Source: Halisarca cf. caerulea
Taxonomy: Eukaryota > Porifera > Demospongiae > Chondrillida > Halisarcidae
Assembly (NCBI GenBank): GCA_963170055.1
Contig: CAUJGJ010000444.1
Coordinates: 2,090,001-2,154,000, forward strand
Length of the DNA stretch: 64,000 nucleotides
Reading direction: 5' to 3'
Positions 1,825 to 63,211 of the stretch are shown piece by piece. The position numbers and the translations under genes are program-made. Each line of letters begins with the position of its first letter. The first letter of the stretch is position 1. The notes beneath the pieces were generated by a model, which was given only the letters and a program-made list of their open reading frames with translations, was not told where the DNA came from and did no database searches.

Positions 1825-3645
1825 GTGGAATATTATGCCAATGGCCTCGCTAAGGTAAAACGTCTAAATTCATTTTCCACAGAAATCATCAGTTTGAAGT
1901 CAACACCATGGCACTTCACCCAGAAATTAGCCAAGAAGTTCCTCCCAACCGAAGCAGCACCTCCCAAATTTCCGCTCAAAAGGGTCAGAGAGCAAGCCCT
2001 ACAGCCAAAGTCAATCACATCGTCCAGTCACAAAGTCAAGGCATTTGCAGACGAACTCACAGTCATTTCAAGATCACTATCAAGCCACCAAAAGGTCCTT
2101 GAAGCTACAGTCATCAAATGCAAGGACATGGACCTCCAAGTCCGACCTGACAAATGTGTTTACATCCTATATAATGGTAAGAAAGTGCTAGATGACTCAT
2201 CAGTCCAACTTCCTTCAGGGAGTACCAACAGCATTCGTGCAGCACCAACTGAGTTCCTTGGTGGATATGTTGGCCACACTCACTCAGCAACTAGAAAAGC
2301 TGCCTCAATCCACCTCCTCGAATTCATCACAAAGGCCCTTGATGAAATTGACAAACAACCAATCCGAGGAGAATATATAAGTGCTGGATCCTAAAACACT
2401 ACCTAGCACCATCACTGCACCTATATTCGGTGATTGACAACATCCCAGAAGAAACCATTAAGCAAATACAAGCAAAAGTAAATAAGATTGTCCAAAATGG
2501 CTTAACCTTCCAAGGTCAGCTACATTAGCTCCCTATACCACCCCACTGTGCTGGGCCTTCCATTCTTCCCCCATCTAAGACTGAAGGCTAAAGTTGATTA
2601 CCTCCGTGCTATCACAACTTCCTCAGACCCATTGCTTTAGGAACTGGCTCAAAGATTTTCCACTCAGAATTTGCCCAGCTCGATCCCACCACCCTCTCTT
2701 GACCTACTCAAGTCTGCTAGAGAATCAATTAAAGATCTTCCACCTTCTAAACTTGCATTACAACTGGAGCAAGCAACCAGAAAGGTTACTGAAGCCCATC
2801 AAGTCACCCACTGGGATAAACATCTTGACACCCTCTCGGTCCAATCCCAATTTAAGGACATAGTTATCCTTGAGGGAGACTGCAAAATTTGGTCCAGGAT
2901 TCAATCTGGCTTGTCAGCTGGCCAATTAAGCTTCTTGTTAAAAGCTGGAATTAACTGATTGTTTACCCACACCTCTAAACTTGAGCAGGTGGAGGATACA
3001 AACCGACCCGAAATGCCCCTTATGCTCTTGGCCACAACCAACCACAAAGCACATCATGAACAGATGTCCAACAGCCTTAAACCAAGGCAGATATACCTGG
3101 TGCCATGATTCAGTCCTGCAAACATTTACAAAGGCACTCGTCCCAGCTCTTAGTCTATTTGAGACCCTGTATGCAGACCTCCCAGGCCTCAGAGCCAGCA
3201 ATAACCCACCAGCCACCATCCCAACAAGCCTCTCAACAACATCAGATCGGCCGGACCTTGTGCATGATTGTTTCTGGGGGTGATGTACATATTTTGGAGC
3301 TCACCATCCCGGCCAATACCATTGAAAACTTGAAAGAAGCAAGGCATCGCAAGCAAGCCAAATACCAGCCCCTGATTGGAGACCTCGAATCACATCCACG
3401 CACTAGGGAGGTATCGTACTACACCGTAGAAGTTGAATCACTTGGTCACTATCCGCCATCCGCCAAGCCCTACGTAAAGCCTGCCCATCCCTCTCAAAGA
3501 ATGAGGCCAAGGACATTATGGCCCAAGCAGCCAAAGTGGCTGCAGGCTGCTCTTATTACATCTTTAGAGCCCGCCCGTCCAAAGACTGGGACAGCCACAA
3601 AACTCTATATACTTTGTCGTAGCTATCATTTACCAGTTCATGTAT
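1825..3645 (+). mobile_element. Degenerate non-LTR retrotransposon (RLE-type LINE), copy A
   Basis: Fragments of one polyprotein can be read in three forward frames. Around 2035-2180 is a reverse-transcriptase palm/thumb fragment (FADELTVIS, then LQVRPDKC and, further on, PTEFLGG). Around 2995-3090 is a zinc knuckle of form CPLC-x11-H-x4-C followed by ALNQGRYTW. Around 3285-3460 is a restriction-like endonuclease stretch: VHILELTIP, then an RK-KY pair and EVESLGHY. The order RT, zinc knuckle, endonuclease is that of R2/NeSL/CRE-like elements with a C-terminal endonuclease. Frameshifts and stops make it dead. The 5' part of the RT is missing or unreadable. Confidence 0.7.
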
Positions 3646-4038
3646 TTTCCATTAGAATTAAACTGCTACCTTATATCATTCATTATTACTCACATTGTTA
3701 ATTTTACCATAAAAGGACTAGCTCCAAATGTCTTGCCAAGCCCATGTCACTCATGTTAGCTTGTGTCCGAGGCTGTATTATTAATTATATTATTGTCCTT
3801 GTACTATTATCTTGCAATTAATGCAATGTTTTCTCTTTGACAGAGTGTTGCAATAATTGGTACAAGAGAATTCAGTGGAATGGAGGATGGAAATGGGTTA
3901 AACTGCATGGATGCACAGTTTTGTGCCTAGTCACCATTTGTGAAGATTTGGGGCCAAGCAATTTCGAGTAGAATGACTCAGTAAAAAGTTTTGCAAAATC
4001 TGTGAATTGTTACAGGTTAAAGCTTTGGTTGGACCCTA

Positions 4039-4255
4039 TAGGGTAAGGCGGGGTAACTCGGAACGCATGGGTAACTTGGAACGGCTGAGCAAAGACAGTG
4101 CCAATAGAAGCTACAGGCTCAAGTTTTGGTCAGTAATGTCTCCATGAATAGAGCATTCAGCAGTGGCAAGTATGGCTGGCCAGCTTAATCATAGCAAAAG
4201 ATATAGGCCCTACTCCAAGTTACCCAGGTGTTCCAAGTTACCCCACATTACCCTA
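4039..4255. mobile_element. MITE with TAGGGTAA.GCGGGGTAAC terminal inverted repeats
   Basis: The left end reads TAGGGTAAGGCGGGGTAACT and continues with a second GGGTAACTTGGAAC motif. The right end is its reverse complement with few changes (GTTACCCCACATTACCCTAG). The element is about 217 bp, has no coding capacity, and is flanked by TA-like bases. The terminal repeats themselves contain a repeated GGTAACTTGGAAC submotif. Confidence 0.65.
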
Positions 4256-5041
4256 GCAAGCCGAAGGACTTTTGTCCATCACTCCACATATATACGGAGC
4301 TCCGTCTTCCCACTTGCCCCTACATCTGCCCACCCAAGGAATCCATTTCCTCACTGGTAAGAGTCTACCTCCCCACCTGCTCAGTCTATGTATATATAAT
4401 ATATATATACATGCCTACTGAAGGAGTCCTTTTTTCCACCAGTAGAGTCCATATCATCGTAAACCTGCCAAATCCATTTTAGTTGTTAACTTAGATTACT
4501 GACCCACCCATGCATGAAGAGAAATAATTGGATTTTGGGCATGTCTGATGTTGTAAAGAGCTATATATTCTCTGAGATGAAGGCCAAATAACTGACAGGC
4601 ACATCGCTGCTACTCAAGCTCTTTTGTTGCAGAAGTTTGGTACTGATGGGGGTTTCAGTTTTTGGATCCCTTCTTAGTCAGAATAGTCATGACTTCAAAC
4701 TGGTAAGAAGGCTGTGCAAATCCACCATGATTGGTTATCTCACTGGATTGCATTGAGCAATTTCAATGGATCAAGAGGCTGTTGTATTTTGACATCCAGT
4801 TATACTTGTCTTGTTCACTTCATTTAAGAACAGTTAGCTTCCATATATTATATAATCATAATTTATGCAACATACTAATAATTATAGCTTCTTGCTGTGG
4901 ACAGGTCGATGACCTTCAGATTGTCTTAAGAATACAAAGATACTCTAACAAACATACAGAGCTGGGCTAAAGTATGACATGATCAGCTGTAGATGGAATA
5001 CATGCATGTTAATGTATTTAGTAAGCTTAGTAATAATATAA

Positions 5042-5475
5042 TAGGGCAAAGTACAGTAATTTGAAACACAGGGGTAATTTGGGACAGGGTCTTTACTTTT
5101 GCTATACAGTGGAATCTCCAAATAGAGGACACTTTGGGACACTCTTAAGCTTTTTGTCCTTTGTAAGGAGGTTGTCCTATTTGGGAGGCCCAAAATGTAT
5201 TGGAACTATAGGGAGAAAATATCTTGGGACCTCCAGATGTGTTCATTGTAGAGAGATTGTCCTTACTTCAGTGAGTCCACTATATGATCAGAGATTCCAC
5301 TATAGTTAAGTTGTATGGCCACACGTGCTATACTACTGAACTCCCAATTCACGGAGACAACAACTATGAGAATTAATAATGGTATGTATAGCTTTCAACT
5401 GATGTTGTGCGTTTGACCCACTGTCTTGAATTACTCCACCATTGATCCAAATTATACCCCGCTTTACCTTAACAA
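5042..5475. mobile_element. MITE related to the 4039 element, interrupted by another MITE
   Basis: The left end (AGGGCAAAGTACAGTAATTTG, then GGGGTAATTTGGGA) pairs imperfectly with the right end near 5440-5475 (TCCAAATTATACCCCGCTTTACC). This resembles the termini of the element at 4039-4255. A separate element at 5107-5304 sits inside it, so the nesting gives a relative age: the outer element is older. Confidence 0.45.
5107..5304. mobile_element. MITE of the CAGTnnAACCTC family
   Basis: The ends read ACAGTGGAATCTC and GAGATTCCACTAT, reverse complements, next to TA. The interior repeats words such as GGACA, GTCCT and TTGTCC in both orientations. Members of the same end-type recur at 13811, 17996, 23457, 31257, 48766, 51707, 52864, 62328 and 63706. 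TA target duplication and the CAGT end suit a Tc1/mariner or pogo/Tigger-derived non-autonomous family. Confidence 0.6.
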
Positions 5476-6988: not shown

Positions 6989-9900
6989 TTAAATAAGAGC
7001 TGTAGGAATATCTGTGATGGTGAGACGGAACTTAAGTGAGTCATTTTCCATGCAACTTCTGTAAATTGTTTCGAATCTATTGGGCATCCAGTAGTCTTCA
7101 TTTTCATCATACAAGCTGAACAGAAGGATTCTTCTGGTATAATTGTGGGCCACACGCTTGCCATCTTCTGGTGTTAAATAACGTAGCGAAGCATGGTAGA
7201 TAGTATCATCGACTCTTAAAAGATCACATTTGGCAGTAGCTGAAAAAGGCCAACTCAAGGAATCGTCAAATTCCCCACAATACATGTATAGAGAAATGTA
7301 ATTGAAGTAGTTTGATCCAAAGTTAATTGCGACGGATATTTTGTAGCCATGATTATGGGTATAGAAGACTTTACTACTCCAGGTAGAACTGCCTTGGTCT
7401 TTCAAGTGCACAGATGGAACCACAAAGTCAAATGTTGCCATTTGCTCTGTTCCTGGAAGAAATACCTGAGACTGCACATCACTGAGGGACGATGAAGATG
7501 ACATTGGTTGCAAACTGTGACCGCTTGAATCAGAAGCTGTACTATTGATAGCATGTACATCACAACTTGTTTTCCTACGGCTAATGTGTTTTAATTTCGT
7601 TCGAACTGATTCCAAAGAAATCTTTTGCTTCTTCTCCAGCAAATCTCCAGACAATGATTCACACTGATATAGTCCTTGGAATTTACAGCGGTGATGGATA
7701 ACATTTTTAAGTGGCATGGAAATGCAGCTACTGCAGCCTTTCCCAGCATTTGGACAAAAAACCTGAATTTCCAATATCTTCCTATCCAGCAATGCATCTG
7801 TAACAAGGTCCACCTTCAAGTTGCAGCTAGGGCAAGTCAGACCATTTTTATAACATTCCTTACAGCAAATCTTCCCGCAACACTTAGCCTTTTGGACACT
7901 GGAAGGGAGATCCTTGCAGAACATACAAAGGTACTGCTGGTTTGCTGATGATGAGGAATTGTAAGGTCTACCCAAGTACCTTAAAATGATGAAACCTGAC
8001 AAAGTACAAGTGAAAACTCATTATACTATAGTATCTAATATCAAAAATATGACACTTTACCACATTCAATGAAACATTATACGTATATATTGGGAAAATT
8101 ATTGTATTTTGAAAAATCTAATGTAAAAGTATATGTAGATGATCAAGTGAAGACTGACAAATGCAGCTGCATGTGAAACATATTTGAAGTATTCAACTAC
8201 ATAATTATATTAAGTTAAACCACTGCTTAAATGGAAGTTAGTAATTACTATACACTTCAATTGTTATGTATAAAACATTGCAATGGACAGAAAGAAAAAA
8301 GGCACACTTTGTGGGCTACAGACAGTTACGGTGAGTTATCATCAATGATTTGGTAAAGTAATTCTCTTTAACATTATGGTTCTATAGAGTCATGAAAAGT
8401 TTGGTCTCGCATGGTATTGATTTGTCTGGTGTGAATATCAAAAACAAACTCCAGGCAACCATTGAGTTGAGGCAATATATGTATGCTAAGTTTGGGTTAG
8501 GGTTGATTGAAAACTACCCAGCTGAACCCAACTTATTGGTGAGACCAGATTTTGTCACAGTCTGGCTCACTAGACCATCCCTCCCCTAACCTGGCAGGTG
8601 GGAGCTTGTTGGGACGGTCTACCAAGCCAGACTAGATTTGTCATGACAGTTCTACAGTAAATAGGGTGCACATGCAAGCATTTGTTTGTATGCGATGTAC
8701 ATTGATACATGTTACTATGTACATTGATACATGTTACTATTACTATGCGATGTACATACATGTTACTATTCTATTCCATTACAAAGCATGGTATTCATAC
8801 CCCTATAAGTGTATAATAATATATGGTGCATGGAGCCAGTGATCCACAAATTGATTACATTTGATATATAACCCACAACAGCAACCCATTAATACACACA
8901 AGTCATAACAATACTATAATATATATATATTTTCATAGTATATTTTCAGTTTAAATTTGTAGACATGTAAGTACACATGTATATACATACGTATTCAGTA
9001 CATGTGTACTGCAAAGGCATACTTTTCGATATTTCCTGTACATGTATCAAACTTTTGCTTACCGCTTTGAAAGTGCGAAATGACAGATGCAACTGTAGTA
9101 TCCAGATTCACCCAGCCCCACAGAAGGCAGTTTGTTGGCACTGTAGTACACTGAGTTTTGAAGTTCACTTTGTTGATGTTTATCACAAACTCTCCCTTCA
9201 TAGTAAACCTGCAACCAACTGTATCACCTGCAGTGATGTGCATCAGCTTCAAAGCATTCTGAAAGTAATGCTCTTCGCCATCAAAACAAATGTTGTTCCA
9301 GCTGACAAACCAGAATTTTTGACTCAAGTACATTTCCTTCATGCTTTTCATTTTGCTCACTTCAGCAGGTGGCAATGATGTGAAACCAAAACTCTGTGAT
9401 CAAGTTAACAAAATAGAAAAAAAAACAGTGCATAGTAAATATAATGCATGTCGATTCTTTCACAGGATTGTATGTAGGGTGACAACAATGTATTTCTCTT
9501 AGTCCAATTTGACTCATAATTAACAGAATACAAGGTATATGTAGTCCAATATATTCCTAGACTGGAAGAGTAAAATTAATTATTTATAATAGTACAGTAC
9601 ATATGTATGTATTTACAGTATATAAATAGGCAGCCAAAATTGAAGCTGGGTGAATTATCCTGAATTTGTATTGAGGAGTAAGTACTAGATACTACATGCC
9701 CGTGAGGGAGTAATGCATTTGCTGCACGAAATACGCTTGAATCGCTTGCAAAGCATTGAAGAGTAAGTGTGCAACTGAACATTCATTGAACATACTTTAT
9801 TATAAAATTATTAACTGGATGATTGTTTTGAAAACAATTGTCATATTTGGACGTTGTTTAGAAAACAATTCCCATCATATTTCTCTATCAGACGACACTC

Positions 9901-28975: not shown

Positions 28976-30504
28976 GCAAGGCTTACTACACTGCTACACT
29001 CTTATATATAGGTAACAGTCTAATTAGACAAACTCACATGTTCTTCTTGTTCCTTCTTCCAGTGGTTTTTGGTTCTGCATGTTTCCAGCTCAGCATTGAG
29101 GAGTGCAGTGGTCTCATCCATCGATTTAGTAGTGTGGTGTGGGTTGGCCTTCCTCAGTCTAGCCAAACGGCAACCTAACATGATGACAAAATACCAAATG
29201 ACATGGTTATTGTGAAAGGCAATGAAAATGGCACCAATTGTACTGTTAGTAAGATTATAGTGTGTACATAGTAGTAGCAGTTTCAATATATTATATTATA
29301 TATTGAACAGGTAGTACACTGTGATGAGTTACAAGTATTCATAGTTTCTAGTGATACATTGTATGTTGTGTTAGTAGGCCTCTGATGGTACCACTAACAG
29401 ATAAGGTATCATGGGATGTAGCCTCTGTAATGAAAAGTCCAAAACCAAATTATTAATATCATCTATCATCATTTATTAATCAATTAATAAACCATATGAC
29501 TATAAATGTTAACATACCCAATACCCTAATCTTTCTCATCCAAAGATAATTCTGGCTCACCTACGATGATTCCAATCGCAATCAAAATCAGCAAGACCAC
29601 TACAACAGGAACAACTACAGCAAATGACTGTAGGGAGGCAAAATGGAGAAGAATCAAGGATGCATGTCACATTAGGAATGAATGGTCATACAAAATTATA
29701 AACACCAAATAACCAACAACCTAGTTAATGGAGTGAAAGAATAATCTTACCACCAAAACTTTTTCTTCGAATTTGTCTGTAGGAGGAGGAAAGAGAGAAA
29801 CATGCTAATTATGTACATATAATAACACTGGAAAAGTATCACACATGTGTAAGAAATCTTATTGCATGGCATAATGAATAAAGATGACAGATGGGATTAG
29901 AATGGAAACTACTCCTAAAATGTAAACAAACTTAAAAATACCACCAGTAATACCATAACACTGTGCATTTCAACTGGTCATACTGTCCACATGGTTTGCA
30001 CCAAAGTAGTACGTAATGATTCTCACCTGGACATGGCAGGTAGGTCTCCTGGTAATCCGAACTATTGGTTTGGTCGAATACAACCTCCAGACAACGTCCC
30101 AGTAGGTGGCAGTAGACTGGAGTGGGCTGGCTCTTCAAGTAGGCCAGACTCAGCACACAGTCTCTGGTGTGGATGACCAGATGCTGGTACTCCTCTCCTT
30201 TAAACCAGTCCTTCAGCAGCACTGTTGGAAAGAGGGTGTCATAAGCCTCACAGAACCCAGCAGAGGGATATGGGTCTGTGGAACTGGACAGGACAAAGGC
30301 AACAGGGGAAAATTTTAAGGTAACATTAAAATTTTAAAGAGCTCACTTTATTTCAATTATTTAAAAATTTAATAACAATCATTGTTAAAATGCTGCTGAC
30401 CTTCAGTAAGTAGAATTTTAATACTGTATTACATTGTATTCTATTATGATTTATAATTTGATTTCCTGTAGGTCTGACATGAAGTACGTATACGTAGCAG
30501 TAGT

Positions 30505-31085
30505 CAAAGTTAATGGACATACATGAGGCAACATTTGGGCAACATTTCATATATATGGAACATGTTGCTGGTTAAATATAGCTAGCAAGTTTTTGCTACA
30601 ACATTGATCATACACTATGCAACATTTTGTGGCAACCAAGTGGGGTGGACACCCTGGGACAGTTGATAATGCATAGAATGGCTCTAAAAAATGTTTGCTG
30701 CTTTTATTGTTGATGAGAAAACAGCGTAGGGAATGGAGAAATTGAAGGTTATGGGTTAGGGTTTGAAGTTCAGTGGCTATTATTCTCTTATCTCTGTTGT
30801 GATATTCTTCACGTTTGATATCATAGAGAAAAGGATATCTCTCAAAGGAAGAAATCAAATGCTTTATAAGTTCTGCTGTCCAGTTTGTAGCCATTTTTCA
30901 GAGATCATGTGGTCACGATCCCCTAGGTAACTTTGATGTGGGCAACATGTTGCCAGAGAATTCCTGGGCAACATGTTGTCCAGTGCTGGCAACAAGCAAC
31001 ATTTCAACATACACTAGGCAACATTGCATTGGCAACATGTTGCCAATGCAATGTTGCCTGAAATCTTGCCTCATGTATGTTACTA
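30505..31085 (-). mobile_element. Harbinger-like element with a MADF-type protein remnant, in intron 1 of the RTX-like pseudogene
   Basis: Inverted ends: ACATACATGAGGCAACATTT near 30517 and TTGCCTCATGTATGT near 31065-31081. Inside, the minus strand from 30894 to 30547 is open and starts MATNWTAELIKHLISSFE, with the W...L...PFLYD...Y.NR..R pattern of MADF/Myb-like DNA-binding proteins carried by PIF/Harbinger transposons. The 115-residue frame is truncated relative to such proteins, and no DDE transposase is present. GGCAACATGTTGCC palindromes are dense near the right end. Confidence 0.6.
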
Positions 31086-31256
31086 GCCCATTTATAATAA
31101 GTACTTAAAAGGAACATTTGATACAGTATGATTGGCACTTTTGCAGCTCACACAGACTTTAAAGACAAACAGAAATTGCATGCAATACGTAACTTAAAAT
31201 CGAGGAATGGGCACGGACACCAAAATATAATTCTAGGATAGCAGTATACATACCTA

Positions 31257-31480
31257 CAGTCGAACCTCACTATAATGAACCCTGGATACAACTAACTCCC
31301 TGATATACGTAACAAACATAGACGAAGAAATCAAATGCTCTATAAGTTCTGCTGTCCAGTTTGTAGCCATTTTTGTGTACACCTATTTACTCTATGTAAA
31401 TGAACCTTGATATAGCAAACACCCTGATATAGTGAACCTATTCAGTGGTCCCAAGGGGATCGTTTTACTGAGGTTGACTG
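31257..31480. mobile_element. CAGTCGAACCTCAC MITE carrying a piece of the neighbouring Harbinger element
   Basis: TA-CAGTCGAACCTCACTATAATG and TACTGAGGTTGACTG-TA form the inverted ends. Bases 31324-31374 (GAAATCAAATGCTCTATAAG onward) repeat the start region of the MADF frame at 30845-30897. The rest (TGTACACCTATTTACTCTATG ... TCAGTGGTCC) is shared with the element at 48766. Confidence 0.7.
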
Positions 31481-34400
31481 TATAGTACAATAGAGACAGA
31501 AAAATTACTGACTGCAGTCCAAATGTTGTTGCAGTTTATACTGTACCTGTTCACTGAATTTCCTTCAGCATCAGTGGGGTAAATATCCAGCGGAGACTGA
31601 CTGCCTCCACCAGGGACTAAGGTTGAAGAGTTGGAGGATGACGAATTGAAAGCTGAATCATGTGTAGAATTCCTGGAAGCATTACACACATTCTTTGATA
31701 GCAATGGAGATCTGTACTGGTCAGAGACTTTGCGAATGATGAGGTCATCTCCACTGATCTGATATCTCAAATCACCACTGTCAACAAAGCTCATGTACAC
31801 TGAGTCCAGTTGAAGATCACGGGCAAAGTTAACAATAACTTTTGTCCCTTGAGCATAGGTAAGGTTGTACTTGTCCTGTCCCTCCCCTCCAATGAGAATG
31901 TTGTAGGCAGAGTATGCTATCAAATGATCATCACCACCTCTTCCAGAGAGAACATTGTCATCTAAACTAGAAGAGATCATGATATCAGCAAAAGGTGTTC
32001 CGTACACATTTTCTACTCCTTCCAGAGAATCCACTCCAGTGGGGTGGTGACCCAGACCATTGTACAAGTCCACAGTGACTCCAGTGTTGTTGAAAGGGTC
32101 TCCATTGTACAAGACGGTGTCCACACCATCTCCCCCAATGACAGTGTTGCTGCCAGGTCCCGGAACTAAGATGTCATTGCCTGGTCCACCATCTAGAGTG
32201 TCATCCCCACCCCCACCAACAAGAGTGTCTTGTCCCTCTCCACCTGTAATTCTGTCTGCTCCCTTCCCACCTTTGATGACATCGTCACCTTCCCCTCCAT
32301 CAATGCAGTCATCCACATCACCTCCAACCAGAGTGTTATTGAAAGAGCTACCATAGATGTGATTCCTGTAGCGCTGGGCTCCATAAACAGTTACCACAGA
32401 AGACAAGGAGTCATGAGTAAGGTTAATGAACTGCCCCGTGTTGTCTTTATACCTGTTCATGACAATTGGTAGAGGCTGGAAGTTGTTGGAGGGTGGAAGG
32501 ACAAAGGTGAAGCCATCACTGGTAGTCACTGTGAGGTGACGAGAGTTGTTGGATGAAATATAGTCGAACAGAGTCACAGAAGCACCATTCCTGACATCTA
32601 CTGTAGCAAGAACCAGAGAGGGCCCACTCCTGCTAACTGTTATGGAATGAAGTGGAAAAAGAAAAAGTAGGGAATCTGTCAGACCATCCTCAGCTTCGTT
32701 GTACACTGTGACCTGCCCATACCCGGGCTTGACAACATAGGTGTCACTGCCATTGTTGCCTCTGAGTTCAGCAATGTCTCCCAGTGAAGGGTCTATGTAG
32801 TTAGATAGATGATTACCAGCAATGCAGTCATCTGCCTGAGAACCAATCACTCTCTGAACAGTAGATAACTCACCTCTGTTTAAGTCTAGCACTTGTGACT
32901 GGTTTGAGCTAGACCTATCGATCACAATGGGTGTTTTCATTGTAGTCTTGTTAGTGGGTAGAGTGAATTCAACACCATCCACAGATCGGACAGTCAAATG
33001 CTGGTATGTACTCAGAGTGAACCAGTTCAAGATGGTCACTGACATGTTCTGGCTCGAGACCAATTCCTCAGGTGGTCTCCGTCAAAGTTTGGCAGTATCT
33101 CTGCATCATTGTAGGTAGTGTTAAACAAAAGAAGATCTTGTTGCTGATCTGCAGCTAAATTGTTGATCTGGTCATGTCCTTGGTTGGGATGAATGACATA
33201 CACATCGCTACCCTCCCCACCTTTGATGAAATCATCACCACTGCCTCCCATGAGGTAGTTGTTCTTGCTATTTGCTGTGATGTTATCATCTCCATCAGAT
33301 CCCATTACAGTCGGCACTCTTTGTAGAACAGAACTGGTGGTTAGGTCCACACTGGAGGGCTTAGTTAACTCTAGAATAATTGGAATGGTGCTAAGGTCTG
33401 TTGAGTTGACCTGAAACACGATGAAGTCTTCACTTACAAACTCACAGTGCTGGTATTCTTCGCCCACAAACCAGTTTTGAAGGACTACATGTAGAGTAGC
33501 AGCTGAGAGCACAAGGTCTTGGCCTGTTCTGCTGGCACTGATGTCAGCAAACTGAACATGGATTAGCATACTGTCCTGCTGCTTGTCTTCAGCATAGTTG
33601 TTGATAGTGTCACTTCCGCTGTCCTCCTCCATGTTGTAGGTGTCCTGACCAGACCCTCCAGTCAGCACATCATTGCCCGCTCCTCCGATAAGAGTGTGTG
33701 GGACCAGAGTTGCCCACAAGTGTATCATCATGATCAGAACCAACAAGATAATGAACTGTTTTGAAGGCAGTCACACTGGCATTGAGTGTTCTACCCAATG
33801 GACTTCCCGCAGCAGTGAGGGTGAAGGGCAGAGGATGGGCCTGGCCTAGCTCGTTGATAGAAATTCTGAACAGCACACCATCCTCTGTCCTTATGGTTAA
33901 GTGTTGATAGGCTGAACTGTGGTACCAGTTTTGAAGAGTAACCTGCTTAGGAGCTACTGATGAATCTGCTCCATCAATAGTGATGACAACATCAGCTCCG
34001 GATCTTATTAGATTCAATTCATTGTAGTTATGCTGAATGATGACATAGTCATTCTTCTGGTCAAGGGCGTGGTTGTTGAGAGTGGCCCATGTGGTGGTGA
34101 AGTTGACAAAATACACATCTTCTCCCAGCCCTCCCTCTACAAGAGCATGCTGGGGTCCCAGGTAAAACATGTCATCCCCATCCCCTCCTATGAGGTGGTA
34201 GAAGTAATCCTCCAAACTGTACTTTAGACCAGAGTCTGGAGGAAGTTCTTGAACAGAAAAGAAGTTGTTGGCTCTGCTGTTACCAGTGTAGGAACCTTGT
34301 AGTGTAGAACTATCATCGTTGAGACCAGAAATTATGCGCTTTTTATCCACTGGTATGAACACAAAAACTTTCACTCTTTCTGTTCTGAAGTTAACTGTGT

Positions 34401-37400
34401 GGGATTCCCCTATGCCCATGATGATGTCATTGGCATTTGGACCAAATGAGATAGCTTCTTCATATCTGATCTCTTGACCACCTGTGTTGGTTGTTGTCAT
34501 GGTTAGGTCTCCTGTTCCGTCATCCTTGAGCACAAACACAATGTCCCCTCCATTCCAAGACTCTTTTCCACCAGCAAAATTGATGGCAGTTGATCCATTT
34601 CCACTCTCTTTGGAAACAGTGAAGTAGTTATTGTAGTCTGATAATTGTCGTAAGAAGTCCTGATCCTTATCATACTGCTCATTAAGTTTGTGAGACTTGT
34701 CAGCGAATGTAAATATCCCACCAGTGATGGCGTCAGCTATGTCCCCTAAGGCATCCAAAATACCTTTTAGTACTGCTAGTATCTTCTCACCAGCTGAAGC
34801 ACCTGGTGGAAGGGAGTCAATTTCTCGCTTTATATCATAGTAAAAGGATCCAATGGTCATTCGAATCACTGTGAGGACGATGACAACTGGTTCTGCTTCA
34901 GGGCCAAGTACACCTAGAACAGTGATTAGTGTGTCCAGACCAGCATCCACATAACCAATAGGTGTGCCTTGTTTCAAATCCTCATATATGTTGTAAATAC
35001 CAAATGCAGTGCCTACAACTGGAATATCCTCTGCTAGCTCTCCTACTCTAGTTCCGGCAGACAATAGTTCATCTCCTCCTGACAATACAGCACTAGCAGC
35101 ATCCTCACCAACTATGGTTTCAGCAACTGATGCTATACGTTTGACACTTCCTCTTATTACCACACCAAGAACCCTCCCTGCAGCCCTGTAGACAAGACGG
35201 TTGATACCAGACAATTCACCTATCCCATGCAGTGTCATGGCAAGGTCTATGGCACCATCAGTGTTGTCTCCTTCTTCAAAACTATTCAGTGTAGCTTGAA
35301 GACCAAAAATTGTACCATATATTCCAAGTAATCTACCAACAGAGTGGGAGACTCCACCTTCATGCTCCTTAGAAATGCCCATAACTTTTGTCTCTGTTTC
35401 GTCAAGAATCTGTTTAGTGGCCAACTTGGACTCATCAAATTCACCTTCAATGGATTCAGTCTCTGTGGGATCCTCCACATCAATTAGGTCAAATGTCAGC
35501 TTGCCATTCTTTACATGAATTGAATCCTGGTCCACTTGGTAAGTCTTACCTGTAGCTTCTTCTCTCTCCCTAACGGTCTGTGCAATATCCTTGCTGATGG
35601 TGATTAGGTCTGTGAGCAGGGCCGTAGATATTCGTAGAGACAAGCTATGCTCTTCACTTTCAGTGAAGGTATCAAATTGGGTTTGAGCAGTGTCTATTTC
35701 GGGAGATTCCACTGGCCTAGCATCCCAAGGGGGCTCAGACAAATCATCAGAAATGGCACATTCCCCTGCAGCACGTTTCAGACAACCATCAGGTGGTAAA
35801 GGGGGTTGATACAAAGAAGACCTTTCATCAGGACTTGTATCAAGTAACTGTCGTGTGGATTTTATGAAAATGTCGAACTGCTCTTCATCTGATGCAATAG
35901 AGCCATCATTATCTACCAACATTCCTCTGATATTGTTATCAACAAATCTGCTAAAATAGGCATGCATGCTCTGAACAAACAGTGACTTGACCACGTCAAA
36001 ACCTTTTGGAGGACTTCCATCCCAAATGTCCTCCCTGAAGCCACTGTACTTAGCTGGTCCTGTTCCTCCTCTGCCCATAGGATGGGTTTCAAAGAACTCA
36101 TATCTGTTTAGAGTAGCATGTTGGTAAAGGTCCAGGGCCATTCGATTGGTGATAAAAGTACGCCAGTCACGAATAGGCTCAACAATAAACATGGCAGCCC
36201 CAACCTCTGCATTGTAAGCACTAGCAAGACTGTCTCTGGGAATAGGTGTTTGTACTCCGGTGTAAAAGTCAATCACATTATGAAAGAAGAGATCATCAGT
36301 TTTAGGTTGTATGTGTCAGTATGCATGGCTTCTAATGTCAGGAACATCAACATCTTCATTCTTGATATTGAAGGACTACTGGGAACTTCAGCAATTATTA
36401 CACCTTCCAGGTTGATATAAAAAGGGCTTATCCTCCATGGATGGCTAGTAGAAGATTCCACCTTCATCCTTAAAACCCAATCACCATATCTTAGATATAC
36501 ATACTTGTCTGTGAAAGGTTCACCATCAGGATTCATAGTGTCATCTTTAGTAGGATAACCAAATCCTCTCTCTCCCCAGTACCTGATTTCGGTAAGTAGC
36601 TCGATTTGGCTCTTGAATTCTCGCAACTTAACAGTCTTAATGGTGCCATCCTTGAATTTAACAGATCTAGATATTCCTCGGCTGCCCCAATCTGCAGGCA
36701 CTTCTACAGGACCAAAAACTTTTTCAGTGACTTCAGTGACTGCTCCAAATAAACCATTCTTGTCATAATAACGTATAATGTTTGTGGATGAATCTCCAAA
36801 ACCCAAAATAGAACGTGATGCTTCATCACCCAGAGGATACTTTTTAACTCCTAATGGTCTGACATATGCCTCTCCACTAGAAATCCTGTTGGTCTCAGTA
36901 GTGATTCCCCCACTAGGTCCGTTTTTTGCAACATATTCTAAAGCTCTACCTTCTGGCAAGCCCCACTGAATGGGTCTATCAGCTACCATTTTTCCATAAA
37001 CCGCTCTTCCTGTGGAGTCTGTTGTCTTGATGACATCTTGTCCACTCACTTCAGATTGCAAGCCATTCTCTCGCAAAGCTGTCAATACTTCCTTCACATA
37101 GTCCTGGGTAACTCCAGGAGCACGGATAGACAAGCGTCCCAAAGAGTCACCATCAACTGGCCAGTTACGAATCATACTGGCAACTTCACCAGGTGGAATT
37201 ATATTTACCATTATCAATTGCACTTCACTGTTTGGTCCTTGGAACAATGGCACCCTACCTTCCACAGGTTCAAAAGCCCTCTTACTAGGATCCCAGGTTG
37301 TTTTCTGCAGTGCAGATGTTTGATTGTCCCAGCAAAGCACATTGGGAATTCTGCCTTCTTGGTTCCAAATGATATGACCTGCTTGTTGAGCAGCCCGCGA

Positions 37401-37508
37401 ACCAGCCACAACAATGGAACGTACAGAATCTCCATCGCTCACCAGCAAGGACAGTGTGAGCATCCACAGAATAAGTTGAGTGGTACCCACCATACTGCAT
37501 ATGTACAT

Positions 37509-47263: not shown

Positions 47264-48588
47264 TCATATCCATGCATTCCATTTGCCAGTTGGTGCTGTA
47301 GGTGTAAGGTATTGCACAGTCAGTGGAGAAAAATGCCTGGACTCCATGCAATAGGGAGGTATAGGGATCTTGAAGGGTGAATCAGGGGAGCTAAGATAAT
47401 GCGCTTCCATGACTCCATGCTTCATAAGGCTGCTGTACTCTCTGACTGATGAAGATGTAGTGTGTTCATAGGATTTGCCTGGATGTAGGATGACAGGAGA
47501 TTCAAAATTCCATTCCTGCTCTACCTCTTCGATCACAATGTTCCCATCAAATGTGTGGAACTCCAAGTCCCAGTGTACAGAATGGCAGTGGAGCAAGCAG
47601 CTTTCAGGTGCCTCGGGGGATAATGATATGACGGTACGTTGAAAGTACCTTCCTGAAAATAATATAGCAGACCCATACTCTAAATATCCAAAGCTCAAGT
47701 CAAACACTCCATAAACACACACAGTGAAATACCCATTCACCAACATTGAAGATGGCTGGAGGGTGAATCGCGTCAAGTCACAGTCTATTGGTGTGACAAA
47801 ATAGCGCGAACACCGGTCTGCCTCTTGCTGCAACCACTCAGCAAATGTGAAGGTTTCATTGGAAACCAGCAATGTTTGATCTCGACCTTGGCTCCGCGTG
47901 TAAACTGTGACAACACACCCTGTGTCCTCCTCACTGGCACTGCTCAAGACTACCAGGAGTTCAGAGAAAGGCTCTAGAGCTGACAGCTCCATGTTACAAA
48001 GTGCGTACTTGGCCAGGACCAGCATAGATTCCTTCCGCACCATCACCTGTTTCCTATAGACATTAAGTTTGATTTCAAAATCAACAGTGAACAAGTCTTT
48101 GAGACCAAGCAGAACATATCTGGTGCGACTACAAGCGGGGTAATCCAGATCACCCAGGGAGAGGAGTTGGTCATGAATTCTAAGAGAACATCTGTAGTCA
48201 TTGGGAAGATCTACCTTCAGTTTCTTCACACACGACGCAATGTCCTCCTCGGTGGCTCCTTTCGAAGAAACGAGCTGACTGTAAACGGACGGGCATCTTC
48301 TGGCGAGAATTAACTCGATTTCGTTCCAGGCGCCTTTTACGGCTGCGTAGCAGTGTCTGTACGGCCACCAATCAGACCTAGCCATGCTGAGCCATTGGTG
48401 GTACCGATTTCGTGCGCTCAATCCTTCAAGTAACCAGACGCTCTTGCACCATTTCTTCCAAAACGAATCATATTCCAAGATAAAATCTCGTAGTAATCGA
48501 CAAGTACCAGCCAGGTGGCCAACATCTTCAACGTCAAGAAGTGATATGATGATCTCCAATACTTCAACCGGGAGACTTCCTATATAAG
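47264..48588 (-). CDS. FBXO3: F-box protein of the FBXO3 type (F-box, SUKH-like, ApaG)
   Basis: Substrate receptor of an SCF ubiquitin ligase by family. The frame opens with SLPVEVLEIIISLLD, a good F-box start, and continues with the second F-box helix (GHLAGTCRLLRDF ... FWKKWC). About residues 80-235 (counted from position 48559) fit a SMI1/KNR4 (SUKH)-like region beginning IELILARRCPSVYSQL. About 255-405 fit an ApaG domain (LEFHTFDGNIVIEEVEQEW, then VILHPGKSYEHTTSS and FKIPIPPY). This order is that of FBXO3, and the length of about 440 residues is near the vertebrate one (about 470). The coding 5' end is unresolved: an in-frame stop lies just upstream, next to a possible AG acceptor near 48588. 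A strong-context ATG at 48668 could start exon 1, but I could not find a phase-compatible donor. Stop TGA at 47264. The ApaG glycine motif is weak. No introns are seen within. Confidence 0.75.
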
Positions 48589-56017: not shown

Positions 56018-56203
<186 letters not shown>

Positions 56204-56236
56204 ATATTATTTTTGTTCCCTCCCTGTGTATGCAGT

Positions 56237-59200
56237 ATGGTGGGTACCACTCAACTTATTCTGTGGATGCTCACACTGTCCTTGCTGGTGAGCGATGGGG
56301 ATTCTGTACGTTCCATTGTTGTGGCTGGTTGGCGGGCTGCTCAACAAGCAGGTCATATCATTTGGAACCAAGAAAGCAGAATTCCCAATGTACTTCGCTG
56401 GAATAGTCTAACATCTGAATTGCATAAAACAAAGTGGGATCGTATTAAGAAGGCTTTTGAAACTGTGGCAGGCAGGCCTTCATTCCAAGGACCACACAGT
56501 GCAGTACAATTAGTAATGGAAGACAGAATTCCACCTAGTAAAGTTGCTGATATAGTTCATAACTGGGCAGTTGATGGTAACTCTTTGAGGAGCTTGTCTA
56601 TCCTTGCACCTAGACTTACCCTGGATTATGTGAAGGAAGTATTGAGAGCTTCGCAAGAGCATGCTTTGTTATCTGAAGTGAGTGGACAAGATGTCATCAA
56701 GGCAAGGGGTTCAACAGGACATGCTGTTTATGGAAGAATGGAACCTGGTGGATCCATTCAGTGGGGCTTGCCAGAAGGTAGTAGAGGTGTTCAATATGTT
56801 GCAAAACGTGGGCCTGATGGGAGTGTCACTACAGAGACCAACAGGGTTTCTAGTGGTGAGGCATACGTCAGACCACTAGGAGTTACAGACTATCCTCTTG
56901 GTGACAAAGGATCACAATCTATTTTGGGTTTTATAGATTTGTCCACTAACATTATACGTTATTACAACAGTGATGTTGTTTTTAGAGCACTCACCAAAGG
57001 CACTCAAAGCATTTTTGATCTTGTAGATGTACCTGCAGATTGGGGCAGTCGAGGAACACATAGAATTGTCAGATTCAAAGATGGCAATACTAAGACTGTT
57101 GAGGTGCGAGAATTCAGCAACCCAAATGATTTGCTTACAGAAATCAAGTACTGGGGAGAGAGAGGATTTAGGTATCCTCGTACAAAAGATAGCATTGTGA
57201 ATCCTGATGGTGAACCATTCACAGACAAACATGTATATCTAAGATACGGTGATTGGGTGTTAAGCATGAAGGTGGAATCTTCTACTAGCCATCCTTGGAG
57301 GATTAGCCCTTTTTATATTAACCTGGAAGGTGTAATAATCACTGAAGATCCCAGTAGTCCTTTCAATATCAAGAATGAACATGTTAAAGTTCCTGACATT
57401 AGAAGACATGCTTACAGAGACATACAACCTAAAACTGATGATCTCTTCTTTCGTAATGTGATTGACTTTTACACCGGAGTACAAACACCTATTCCCAGAG
57501 ACAGTCTTGCTAGTGCTTACAATGCAGAGGTTGGGGCTGCCATGTTTATTGTTGAGCCTATTCGTGACTGGCGTACTTTTATCACCAATCGAATGGCCCT
57601 GGACCTTTACCAACATGCTACTCTAAACAGATATGAGTTCTTTGAAACCCATCCTATGGGCAGAGGAGGAACAGGACCAGCTAAGTACAGTGGCTTCAGG
57701 GAGGACATTTGGGATGGAAGTCCTCCAAAAGGTTTTGACGTGGTCAAGTCACTGTTTGTTCAGAGCATGCATGCCTATTTTAGCAGATTTGTTGATAACA
57801 ATATCAGAGGAATGTTGGTAGATAATGATGGCTCTATTGCATCAGATGAAGAGCAGTTCGACATTTTCATAAAATCCACACGACAGTTACTTGATACAAG
57901 TCCTGATGAAAGGTCTTCTTTGTATCAACCCCCTTTACCACCTGATGGTTGTCTGAAACGTGCTGCAGGGGAATGTGCCATTTCTGATGATTTGTCTGAG
58001 CCCCCTTGGGATGCTAGGCCAGTGGAATCTCCCGAAATAGACACAACTCAAACCCAATTCGATACCTTCACTGAAAGTGAAGAGCATAGCTTGTCTCTAC
58101 GGACATCTATGGCCCTGCTCACAGACCAGATCACCATCAGCAAGGATATTGCACAGAATGTTAGGGAGAGAGAAGAAGCTACTGGTAAGACTTACCGAGT
58201 GGACCATGATTCAATTCGTGTGGAGAATGGTAAGCTGATGTTTGACCTCATTAAAGTGGAGAATCCCACAGAGACTGAATCCGTTGAAGATGAATTTGAT
58301 GAGTCCAACCTGGCCACAAAACAGATTCTTGATGAAACAGAAACCAAAGTTATGGGCATTTTGGATGAGCATGGAGAAGGCATCTTGAGATCTGCTGGAA
58401 AAGCACTTGGAATATATGGAACACTTCTCGGTCTCCAGGGCACAGTCAAAAGTTTTGAAGAAGGAGACAACACTGATGGTGCCATAGACCTTGCCATGAC
58501 GTTGCATGGGATAGGTGAATTGTCTGGTGTCAATCGTCTTGTCTACAGGGCTGCAGGGAGGGTTCTTGGTGCGGTAGTGAGAGGAAGTGTCAATCGTATA
58601 GCATCAGCCACTGAAAGCATAGTTGGTGAGGATGCTGCTAGTGCTGTATTGTCAGGAGGAGATGAACTGTTGTCTGCCGGAACTAGAGTAGGAGAGCTAG
58701 CAGAGGATATTCCAGTTGTAGGCACCGCATTTGGTATTTACAACATATATGAGGATTTGAAACAAGGCACACCTATTGGCTATGTGGACGCTGGTCTGGA
58801 CTCACTAATCACTGTTTTAGGTTTACTTGGTCCTGAAGCAGAACCAGTTGTCATCGTCCTCACAGTGATTAGAATGACCATTGACACCTTCTACTATGAT
58901 ATAAAGCGAGAAATTGACTCTCTCCCACCGGGTGCTTCAACTGGTGAGAAGATACTAGCAGTACTAAAAGGTATTTTGGATGCCTTAGGGGACATAGCTG
59001 ACACCATCACTGGTGGGATATTTACGTTTGCTGACAAATCAGACAAACTTGATGAGCAGTATGATAAGGATCAGGACTTCTTACAACAATTATCAGACTA
59101 CAATAACTACTTCACTGTTTCCAAAGAGAGTGGAAATGGATCAACTGCCATCAATTTTGCTGGTGGAAAAGAGTCTTGGAATGGAGGGGACATTGTGTTT

Positions 59201-62200
59201 GTGCTCAAGGATGACGGGACAGGAGACCTAACCATGACAACAACCAACACAGATGGTCAAGAGGTCAGATATGAAGAAGCTATCTCATTTGGTCCAAATG
59301 CCAATGACATCATCATGGGCATAGGGGAATCCCACACAGTTAATTTCAGAACGGAAAGTGTTAAAATCTTCTGGTTTATACCAGTGGACACAAAGCGTTT
59401 GATCTCTGGTCTTAATGATGACAGATCAACACTACACGGTTCCTACACTGGCAACAGCAGAGCCAACAGCTTCTTTTCTGTTCAAGAACTTCCTCCAGAC
59501 TCTGGTCTAAAGTACAACTTGGGGGATTACTTCTACCACCTCATAGGAGGTGATGGGGATGACATGTTCTACCTGGGACCCCAGCATGCTCTTGTAGAGG
59601 GAGGGCAGGGAGAAGATGTGTATTTTGCAAACTTCACCACCACATGGGCCACTCTCAACAACCACGCCCTTGACCAGAAGAATGACTATGTCATCATTCA
59701 GCATAACTACAATGAATTGAATCTAAGAAGATCTGGGGCTGATGTTGTCATCACTATTGATGGAACAGATTCATCAGTAGCTCCTAAACAGATTACTCTT
59801 CAAAACTGGTACCACAGTTCAGCCTATCAACACCTTACCATAAGGACTGAGGATGGTGTGCTGTTCAGAGTGACCACTGATGACCAAGGTCAGGCCCATC
59901 CTCTGCCCTTCACCCTCACTGCGGCAGGAAGTCCATTAGGCAGAACACTCAATGCCAGTGTGACTGCCTTCAAAACAGTTCATTATCTTGTTGGTTCTGA
60001 TCATGATGATACACTTGTGGGCAACTCTGGTCCCAACACTCTCATTGGAGGAGCGGGTAATGATGTGCTGACTGGAGGGCCTGGTAAGGACACCTACAAC
60101 ATTAAAGAAGACACTGGTGGTGACACTATCAACAACTACTCTGAAGACAAGCAGCAGGACAGTATGCTAATCCATGTCCAGTTTGCTGACATCACTGCCA
60201 GTAGAACAGGTCAAGACCTTGTGTTCTTAACTGCAACACTTCAAGTAGTCCTTCAAAACTGGTTCAAGGGAGAAGAATATCAGCACTGTGAGTTTATAAG
60301 TGAGGACTTCATTGTGTTTGAGGTCAACTCAACAGACCTTAGCACCATACCAATCATTTGGGAGTTGACTAGGCCTTCAAATGTGAACCCAAGCAGCAGT
60401 TCTGTTCTACAAAGAGTGCCGACTGTAATGGGATCTGATGGAGATGATAACATCACAGCAAATAGCAAGAACAACTACCTCATGGGAGGCAGTGGTGATG
60501 ATTTCATCAAAGGTGGGGAGGGTAGTGATGTGTATGTCATTCATCCCAACCAAGGACATGACCAGATTAACAATTTGGCTGCAGATCAGCAACAAGATCT
60601 TCTCTTATTTGGTACCACCTATAATGATGCAGAGATACTGCCAAACTTTGATGGAGAACACCTGAGGTTGGTCTCAAGCCAGAACATGTCAGTGACCATC
60701 TTAAACTGGTTCACTCTGAGTACATACCAGCATTTGACTGTTCGATCTGTGGATGGTGTAGAGTTTGCTCTTCCCAAGAACAAGACTACATTAAAAACAC
60801 CCATTGTGATAGATAAGTCTAGCTCAAAGCGATCACTTGTAGTGGACTTGAACAGAAGTGAGTTGTCTACTGTTCAGAGAGTGATTGGTTCTCAGACAAC
60901 TGACAGGATCATTGGAAACAGTCTCTCTAACTACATGGACCCTTCAGTGGGAGAGGCTGCTGAACTCATAGGCAAAGACGGTAGTGACACGTATGTTATC
61001 AAGTCGGGTTACGGACAGGTGGCAGTGTACAATGAAGCTGAGGATGGTCTTACAGATTCTGTCCTTTTTCTTGTTCCGTTTCATTCCATAACAGTTAGGA
61101 AAAGTGGTCCTTCTCTAGTTCTGGCCACATTGAATCCCACAAATGAAACTTCTATAACTCTGTTTGACTATATCTCATCCAACACCTCTCGTCACCTCAC
61201 AGTGACTACCAGTGATGGCTTCACCTTTGTCCTTCCACCCTCCAACAACTTCCAGCCTCTACCAATTGTCATGAACAGGTATAAAGACAACACAGGGCAG
61301 TTCATTAACCTTACTCATGATTCCTTGTCTTCTGTCATAACTGTCTATGGAGCCCAGCGCTACAGGAATCACATCTATGGTAACTCCTTCAACAACACTC
61401 TGGTAGGAGGTGATGTGGATGACTGCATTGATGGAGGGGAGGGTGATGATGTCATCAAAGGTGGAAAGGGGGCAGACAGGATAACTGGTGGAGAGGGACA
61501 CGACACTCTTGTTGGTGAGGGAGGGTACGACACTCTAGATGGTGGACCAGGCAATGACATCTTAGTTCCGGGACCTGGCAGCAACACTGTCATTGGGGGA
61601 GATGGTGTGGACACAGTCTTGTACGATGGTGACCCTTTCAATAGCACTGGAGTCACTGTGGACTTGTACAATGGTCTGGGTCACCACCCCACTGGACTGG
61701 ATACTCTGGAAGGGGTAGAAAATGTGTACGGAACACCTTTTGCTGATATCATGATCTCTTCTAGTTTAGATGACAATGTTCTCTCTGGAAGAGGTGGTGA
61801 TGATCATTTGATAGCATACTCTGCTTACAACATTCTCATTGGAGGGGAGGGACAGGACAAGTACAACCTTACCTATGCTCAAGGGACCAAAGTTATTGTT
61901 AACTTTGCCCATGATCTTCAACTGGATTTAGTGTACATGAGCTTTGTGGACAGTGGTGACTTGAGGTATCAGATCAGTGGAGATGACCTCATCATTCGCA
62001 AAGTCTCTGACCAGTACAGATCCCCACTGCTGCCAAAGAATATATGCAATGCTTCCGGGAACTCTTTCAATTCTACTCATATTTCCTCGATTGTTACTAG
62101 CAACACTTCCAATTCCTCAAGCTCTTCAAGATTTATCCCAGATAGAAGCTATCCACTGGAAATCTACCCCACTGATGCTGGAGGAAACCCAATGAATAGG

Positions 62201-63211
62201 TATGAACACAATTAAGCATGCAAAGGCAGTTTTAGGTCAGATCACAATTTGTTTACTCTGTGTTTGTAAGAGTTCATCATGCATGCACATGTATGTGCAA
62301 CATGCTCTTATCCTGAAACTAATTGTACAGTGAAACATCTGTAATCCAACACATCTATAATCCAACATTCTCTGCAATCTGACACAATTTTATTGCCCAC
62401 TAAGTGTCAGATTATAGAGGTTCCACTGTATATTGATAAGTATGATAATTTGTAGTCTCGTTTTCCATTTACAAATTATTGTTTGTCGTTTTAATCTTGT
62501 TGCTTTTTGCATAAATTGTATTTTATTTTTCTTATTTAGCTCCACAGAGCCTTATCCTTCTGCTGGGTTCTGTGAGGCTTACGACACCCTCTTCCCAACA
62601 GTGCTGCTGAAGGACTGGTTTAAAGGAGAGGAGTACCAGCATCTGGTCATCCACACTAGAGACTGTGTGCTGAGTCTGGACTACCTGAAGAGACAGCCCA
62701 CTCCTGTCTACTGTCACCTACTGGGACATTGTCTGGAGGTTGTATTCGACCAAACCAATAGTTCGGATTACAAGGAAACTTACTGGCCATGTTCAAGTGA
62801 GAATTTTTTATACTGTTTGATGCAAACAATGCAGAAAATTTGGATTGCACATGGTACAATAATGTATGTACATAGTTATAAATCTAATACAGTATGTTAC
62901 CATCTACCTTTAAATTAATTAGTTGTGTTGAATTATACTGATAGTCCCATGCTTTGGCTTTCTTGTATATTCATTATGAATGTGGAGTTAGTGCTGTACA
63001 TAATGTATATCCCCTTTTTGCAGACCCAAAATCTACAGAAAAATTGTTGTTGGTAAGATTCGCATGGATGCTTTTTGTGTTATTGACTATTTGATGTCAA
63101 GCTTCCTACGATCCTTGATTCTTCTCTATTTCTTCTCCCAACAGGCTGTTTCTGTAGCTGTTCCTGTGGTCCTGTTTCTGCTGGCTTTGATAGTGGTCAT
63201 GATAGTCATGG
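56237..63211 (+). CDS. RTX / large-toxin-like secreted, membrane-anchored protein (intact copy, 3' end beyond window)
   Basis: Exons: 56237-62199, 62540-62796, 63024-63052 and 63145-63211, with the next exon outside the window. All junctions are GT-AG and in phase, giving about 2105 residues so far. Order: signal peptide 1-25 (MVGTTQLILWMLTLSLLVSD); a C80-like region about 27-150, with VQLVMED (90-96) and SILAP (121-125) where the family has its His and Cys; a middle region; a hydrophobic, Gly/Ala-rich pore-like region about 715-931; and RTX blocks near 1103, 1254-1288, 1398-1435, 1551-1590, 1713-1798 and 1831-1878. The blocks alternate with QNWY/NWF-x6-YQH units like RTX-associated domains. 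Exon 1 ends in a Ser/Asn-rich linker. Exon 2 supplies the last DWF..EYQHL unit and several Cys. Exon 4 encodes the transmembrane helix (VAVPVVLFLLALIVVMIVM). RTX repeats bind calcium in secreted bacterial proteins. Host defence, adhesion or venom-like use is conjecture. If the last donor is skipped, a stop follows after three codons. Acceptor TGCAG lies just before the ATG. Confidence 0.82.
62328..62428. mobile_element. 101-bp CAGTGAAAC MITE in intron 1 of the intact RTX-like gene
   Basis: TA-CAGTGAAACATCTGTAATCC and GATTATAGAGGTTCCACTG-TA are inverted ends with TA duplication. Repeated TAATCCAACA words lie inside. The corresponding intron of the minus-strand copy carries different insertions, so this one arrived after the duplication or was lost from the other copy. 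Confidence 0.75.

Follow-up and report, generated by a model that had tools for sequence, protein, structure and literature searches.

A 64,000-nucleotide stretch of the genome of the sponge Halisarca cf. caerulea (contig CAUJGJ010000444.1, positions 2,090,001 to 2,154,000; hereafter, the window) carries a multi-exon gene, termed copy A, whose predicted product leads from a hydrophobic leader through a degenerate peptidase C80 domain, a folded middle domain and a helical region into a long C-terminal half of RTX repeats. We are all but certain that the gene is real, eukaryotic and under selection, and that it belongs to a toxin-like family. Throughout the family, the N-terminal half is strongly depleted of N-glycosylation sequons. 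Taken together with its fold, this is best read as the signature of a protein part that enters or crosses membranes, an interpretation to which we give about an even chance.

Sequon depletion in the N-terminal half

The window protein has its first N-x-S/T sequon at residue 967 and 21 sequons from there onward. We compared the region corresponding to residues 22–966 among 44 full-length family members (27 assigned to the window's lineage, 7 from vertebrates and 10 further ones), which remained after ten partial or unalignable proteins had been left out of the set P0001–P0054; P0001, being 99.9% identical, stands in for the window protein. The 44 proteins hold 29 sequons in this region, compared to 263 expected from composition, and the reversed motif occurs 227 times. 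Permutation of the alignment-column order, which keeps the relatedness of the sequences, gave a mean of 198 sequons against 33 observed, with none of 200 permutations being as low (this count uses reference columns only, hence 33 instead of 29). By the same approach, the vertebrate proteins alone show 1 sequon in the N-terminal half where 31.5 are expected and the window's clade alone 2 where 19.4 are expected, and the RTX half lies at or above expectation. Counted by columns, the N-terminal half has 22 sequons and 121 reversed motifs; the corresponding numbers for the RTX half are 120 and 125 (Fisher p 1.3e-11). The depletion is complete at residues 250–450, with zero sequons in all 44 proteins where 68 would be expected. 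Cysteines are also scarce in the N-terminal half; in the window's lineage they are equally scarce in the RTX half.

Such a purge implies that the N-terminal half meets the glycosylation machinery and that carrying glycans does harm there, and membrane insertion or crossing would be its simplest cause. Two observations weigh against a uniform purge. At residues 800–966 the reversed motif is also low (3 of 23), so that this bin carries little information, and two proteins with altered C80 sites, P0040 and P0042, differ from most members in still having 5 and 6 sequons in their N-terminal half. In these distant members, protease loss and a relaxed purge may be linked, which is not so in the window's clade. 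Since the sequon test reveals exposure and the cost of glycans but not the cause of that cost, the purge might instead be due to folding or exit from the endoplasmic reticulum, with glycans blocking the packing of the N-terminal half in secreted proteins. We consider this unlikely, though it deserves to be taken seriously, as the purge covers structurally different domains and stops close to where the RTX half begins.

Ancestry of the C80 domain and loss of its active site

In a profile comparison, the N-terminus of the window's clade matched the intact C80 members with 99.0% probability (E 3.3e-18; control region, 0.1%), and a C80 fold was present in the window N-terminus by fold comparison. 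The peptidase C80 model PF11713 gave no match for window residues 1–240 or for the whole exon; it matched 12 of 12 other family members of one tested set. At the two C80 catalytic positions the window copy carries E and P instead of His and Cys, which we take to be the catalytic pair. Both residues are present in 38 of 51 aligned rows and neither in four, which form the window's clade, with five rows ending short of the site and P0045 being unalignable there. Altered sites elsewhere are limited to P0008 and P0042 (Tyr for His) and P0040 (Ser and Tyr). Three further loci of the same genome (L002, L003 and L005) also lack both residues. Judging from these alignments, the C80 His and Cys appear to be lost throughout the window's clade, while most family members seen retain them. 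Of the C80 domain proposed in a first-pass annotation of this DNA, ancestry and fold therefore hold, but not an active peptidase, given that both catalytic residues are lost here and kept by paralogues. For P0041, the C80 region matched three C80 sequences of solved structure, all of them from MARTX proteases (best E 4e-5).

Domain content and topology

Only RTX repeats (PF00353, 100.3 bits, cut-off 23, seven stretches) and an HCBP-related domain (PF06594, 27.4 bits, cut-off 21.4) matched the window protein above the Pfam cut-offs, and together these repeats fill much of its C-terminal half. The first-pass annotation had named these two families as well as C80 and the TcdA/TcdB pore for comparison with hidden Markov models; neither of the latter was among the matches listed for the window copy. 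The curated whole-protein model of RTX haemolysins, NF033943, scored 178.8 bits, below its cut-off of 1000. GGxGxD motifs occur 12 times between residues 1104 and 1874 (1000 shuffles: mean 0.14, maximum 2), so that the blocks reported before are present, but the earlier count of at least six was too low. Within the helical region, the predicted local distance difference test score (pLDDT) is low over much of residues 711–929.

Hydropathy supports the proposed signal peptide, with a hydrophobic leader peaking at residues 1–19. The strongest 19-residue hydrophobicity of the whole protein (Kyte-Doolittle 3.3) falls on the helix of exon 4 and the edge of exon 5, in agreement with the transmembrane helix annotated in the short exons. 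Leader, single helix and basic tail, as judged from hydropathy and from their occurrence in two gene copies, would fit a putative type I membrane topology. As far as the sequence allows this to be judged, the window copy is likely surface-anchored and protease-dead; by inference, it may also depend on calcium, form pores or act in allorecognition.

Gene structure

The exon–intron structure described previously was largely confirmed. The first coding exon is indeed a single exon of 5,963 bp without introns, with an open frame of 1,987 codons and two extra bases. Exons 2, 3 and 4 have GT/AG borders and keep the frame throughout. The additional NWF/YQH-type unit was located in exon 2 as a DWF...YQH unit. 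In exon 3, copy A differs in length by 3 bases from a second copy in the window (copy B), with the frame being kept. A fifth exon, with acceptor and donor in both copies, was found by aligning their downstream regions and encodes a basic juxtamembrane tail (GCCVIRLRRTKP in copy A and GCRLARLRKANP in copy B). With a splice donor at the end of exon 4 and this tail exon behind it, the gene extends past position 63211. No convincing further common exon was found past exon 5 in the downstream comparison of copies A and B.

At the 5' end, the start codon of copies A and B and of a third copy (copy C) is immediately preceded by an acceptor-like sequence. Of 12 other paralogues inspected, 11 have one slightly 5' of the ATG, with too little upstream DNA in L028 (all by eye). 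This implies an upstream non-coding exon, and the gene probably has an exon upstream and more downstream of those mapped here. A long (ATAG)n microsatellite lies at 56042–56204, just 5' of coding exon 1 and within the inferred 5' intron. In addition, P0005, from a 5,722-base contig of JGI source, shows exon 1 fused to exon 2 without an intron, like a spliced transcript; past exon 2 it continues into other sequence without the membrane helix.

The NWF/YQH unit of exon 2 had been regarded as added to an originally single exon. However, single-exon paralogues end in a block homologous to exon 2 (best E 2e-16), encoded within the one exon they have; the block is therefore old and no addition. As far as seen, the anchor and tail exons are the only parts special to the window's clade.

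Gene copies and selection

Copy B shares the five-exon plan with copy A and is about 90% identical in exon 1, but its frame is broken and split across four listed open reading frames (ORFs). It retains the splice borders, the membrane exon and the basic tail exon. Between the two copies, the DNA of the membrane exon is 64% identical, less than the 80% found for intron 3 where it could be aligned with gaps. The conserved features are thus a hydrophobic helix and its exon borders rather than the DNA. Copy C (L002, C412:2170103-2174998) lies about 18 kb downstream on the same contig, is 80% identical and open as far as readable, with its 3' part masked.

Purifying selection acts between copies A and C, as shown by a nonsynonymous to synonymous ratio (dN/dS) of 0.34 (dN 0.109, dS 0.321), calculated from the 1621 codons that can be read in copy C. 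By region, the ratio is 0.20 in the helical and 0.28 in the RTX part, compared to 0.55–0.68 in the N-terminal parts. With region limits being approximate, three of five more paralogue pairs also show a higher dN/dS in the N-terminal parts, reaching 0.80 in the C80 region of L011/L012; L006/L007 shows no such increase and L001/L003 is saturated at silent sites. Between L011 and L012, the C80 and middle regions change fast (0.80 and 0.58, respectively), for which diversifying pressure is possible.

The family in this genome and in vertebrates

The window protein matches at least 28 stretches of the 194 Mb genome, a lower bound based on 24 scored out of 115 candidates. Peptidase C80 itself has 30 genome matches, all above cut-off, three of them with internal stop codons and none at the window gene. 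They are clustered, with 10 of the 30 on contig C352, five on C40 and four on C4. No peptidase C80 match was found in any of 14 control genomes. Proteins of the same plan were obtained from sharks, one reedfish and frogs, namely from Heterodontus, Stegostoma, Chiloscyllium (partial), Erpetoichthys, Dendrobates, Bufo, Anomaloglossus (marked low quality) and Ranitomeya. Each protein search scored about 8,000 candidates; among 120 matches of one search, 16 carried PF11713, all of them belonging to this family, and 104 carried PF00353 without PF11713. In trees rooted by choice on the vertebrate rows, these stay together, and the window's protease-dead rows make up a second group amid the remaining rows; a 30-row tree built without the protease columns gave the same grouping (100/100). 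The gene is thus not a lone bacterial gene, horizontally acquired and kept as one exon, as had been suggested, but a member of a large genome family shared with sharks, reedfish and frogs.

In all ten loci of protease-intact paralogues examined, a stop codon directly follows the exon-2-like block. Downstream of this stop, six of the ten lack a hydrophobic segment in the available DNA and four contain some, partly in simple repeats. The protease-intact members examined in this genome thus seem to end without an anchor. Ahead of the stop, some paralogues show a weak donor-like GTAAC, and for several the available flanking DNA is short, so that splicing to an anchor is possible in them. Giant frames of up to 17,045 amino acids were rejected as genes, being masked stretches read as N in the fetched loci.

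Relation to bacterial toxins and other known proteins

By fold, the N-terminal half matches large clostridial toxins, MARTX proteases and lymphostatin, firmly for the protease part and weakly for the helical part. The resemblance to bacterial toxins claimed earlier thus stands for the C80 part, by fold as well, and is less sure for the delivery or pore region, where it is also by fold. Large clostridial toxins (TcdA, TcdB, TcsH, TcsL) were the best fold matches. They follow the order protease, delivery region and repeats, which the family may share. The sponge protein differs in having no glycosyltransferase upstream, as its protease-like domain begins at residue 22 after the leader, in carrying RTX instead of CROP repeats, in its leader and anchor, and in the lost protease sites of the window copy. 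With MARTX toxins, the family has the C80 protease and C-terminal RTX repeats in common. Here, however, C80 is N-terminal, a eukaryotic leader takes the place of type I export, and the protein measures about 2,100 residues compared to 3,212–5,206 in MARTX toxins (PMC3034196). The latter source also describes C80 cutting of MARTX toxins in the target cytosol as triggered by inositol hexakisphosphate. Lymphostatin aligns non-rigidly with 14% identity over the matched part only.

The vertebrate relatives are uncharacterized proteins (for example, a si:dkey-211g8.8-named protein of Heterodontus francisci, LOC122547764 of Chiloscyllium plagiosum and LOC120979991 of Bufo bufo), homologous across the C80, middle, helical and RTX regions and sharing the sequon purge of the N-terminal half. 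They differ from the window protein in that C80 His and Cys are present in all seven rows reaching the site (P0043 is truncated), and by eye P0044, P0047 and P0049 have no anchor at their C-terminal ends. A nurse shark plasma protein detected by mass spectrometry, Seq34341, is described in PMC9207270 as uncharacterised; the domains reported for it are peptidase C80, Ca2+-binding and RTX-related (COG2931). From this domain list alone, we infer that it is kin to the family. This was the only report on peptidase C80 in animals found in the accessible open-access literature, subscription journals lying outside its coverage, and the accessible part of PMC3482391 describes no animal C80 protein.

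Two scans of contigs from 84,980 bacterial and archaeal species, using the helical-region and pre-RTX alignments, gave 183 and 79 pattern matches, respectively, none of which was confirmed, and a viral scan gave nine, also with none confirmed; as all three started from a small number of short patterns, more distant relatives may have escaped them. These scans thus contained no relative of the middle region, and the proposed bacterial donor stays hypothetical. A bacterial origin of the family is plausible.

Features and neighbouring frames

Table 1 Features of copy A and copy B (window coordinates; residues refer to the copy A protein)
Feature	Position	Strand	Remarks
Splice-acceptor-like sequence	56220..56236	+	pyrimidine tract and CAG directly 5' of ATG; by eye
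Coding exon 1	56237..62199	+	5,963 bases, residues 1-1987; open frame
Signal-peptide-like leader	56237..56296	+	about residues 1-20; hydropathy peak at residues 1-19
Degenerate peptidase C80 domain	56300..56854	+	residues 22-206; without catalytic His and Cys
Folded middle domain	56954..57901	+	residues 240-555; no known family; pLDDT mostly 80-95; no Pfam match
Helical hydrophobic region and beta domain	58040..59626	+	residues 602-1130; possible toxin-type delivery region
RTX blocks alternating with W[FY]...[QH]H units	59546..61876	+	12 GGxGxD; PF00353, 7 stretches
Exon 2, FCEAYD...DWFKGEEYQH C-terminal block	62540..62796	+	GT/AG; 92% identical in copy B
Exon 3, short charged segment ahead of membrane helix	63024..63052	+	splice borders as in copy B
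Exon 4, transmembrane helix	63145..63211	+	about residues 2081-2106; terminates in splice donor; helix also in copy B
Tail exon 5, basic juxtamembrane tail GCCVIRLRRTKP	65786-65883 (C412:2155786-2155883), beyond window	+	comparison of copies A and B
Copy B, five-exon plan, frame broken	29038..37493	-	exons 37493-31547, 30283-30027, 29776-29751, 29627-29561, tail about 29174-29038

Elsewhere in the window, an ORF with a TRAF/meprin MATH domain (6989–8002, minus strand) and one with F-box-like and SMI1/KNR4 matches, both below cut-offs (47264–48559, minus strand), fit with eukaryotic surroundings. Near the gene, a reverse-transcriptase-like frame is located at 1825–2394 (RVT_1 match below cut-off) and another, recognized by eye, at L013:7964-9751.

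Proposed mechanism and alternative explanations

The family plan may be described as a leader, a C80 protease, a folded middle, a helical and perhaps membrane-delivering region, and a glycan-tolerant RTX half. In the window's clade the protease residues appear to have been lost, and the two readable copies would bear a type I anchor and a basic cytoplasmic tail. The protein would be displayed on the surface, with the calcium-folded RTX half serving as stalk and recognition part. Its glycan-free N-terminal half would face an adjacent or invading cell, and the helical region would insert into or cross the membrane of that cell. In soluble members with an intact protease, self-cutting and release might be triggered by inositol hexakisphosphate of the cytosol. 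A tethered member incapable of self-cutting would work by contact and stay attached. Surface display, membrane insertion, the target and a role in defence are conditional parts of this model. We favour a tethered protein whose glycan-free N-terminal half acts on the membrane of a neighbouring or invading cell, and consider the chances of this being right or wrong to be evenly balanced.

One alternative is that the tethered, protease-dead copy serves as a decoy or regulator, binding soluble, protease-intact paralogues or microbial RTX toxins at the cell surface and thereby shielding the animal's own cells. Pseudo-enzymes are often regulators, and the loss of the protease and, where readable, the presence of an anchor in one clade among intact paralogues would suit such a role. 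However, the N-terminal half of this clade is still purged of sequons and its helical region still constrained, which would be needless for mere binding, and we regard a decoy as improbable. The protein could also be a calcium-dependent surface adhesin or matrix protein with an RTX stalk and an inert N-terminal head, its likeness to toxins reflecting ancestry only. RTX and HCBP-type repeats dominate much of the C-terminal half, bacterial RTX adhesins exist, and a large adhesion protein was among the PDB matches; but one would not expect the head of an extracellular adhesin to be purged of sequons along about 950 residues or to keep its hydrophobic helical region under constraint, and this explanation seems slightly more doubtful still. 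A decaying gene without function, as the several breaks in copy B and the lost catalytic residues might suggest, is very improbable in view of the intact exon 1 frame of copy A and its dN/dS relative to copy C. Although the domain content is otherwise bacterial, contamination or a chimeric bacterial–animal contig is contradicted by the 8.7 Mb host contig, paralogues on other contigs, vertebrate relatives, the spliced structure with acceptor-like sites before the ATG, and the MATH and F-box-like frames, leaving this a negligible probability.

Returning to the favoured contact mechanism, its widest form holds that animals inherited a family of self-delivering, toxin-like proteins whose N-terminal half natural selection has held almost devoid of N-glycan sites, in the window's lineage as well as in vertebrates, for the crossing of target-cell membranes, and that in the window's clade one branch became a protease-dead, tethered contact weapon or recognition molecule. 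We put this forward tentatively, as a possibility rather than an expectation. Bacterial autoprocessing toxins are weapons against animals; if the proposal is true, animals themselves would use the machinery of such toxins, in the form of a spliced, selected, multi-copy family with a likely member in shark plasma. The protease-intact members and the tethered, protease-dead clade offer a natural comparison, and the sequon purge provides a cheap, testable sign of which half of such a protein meets a membrane.
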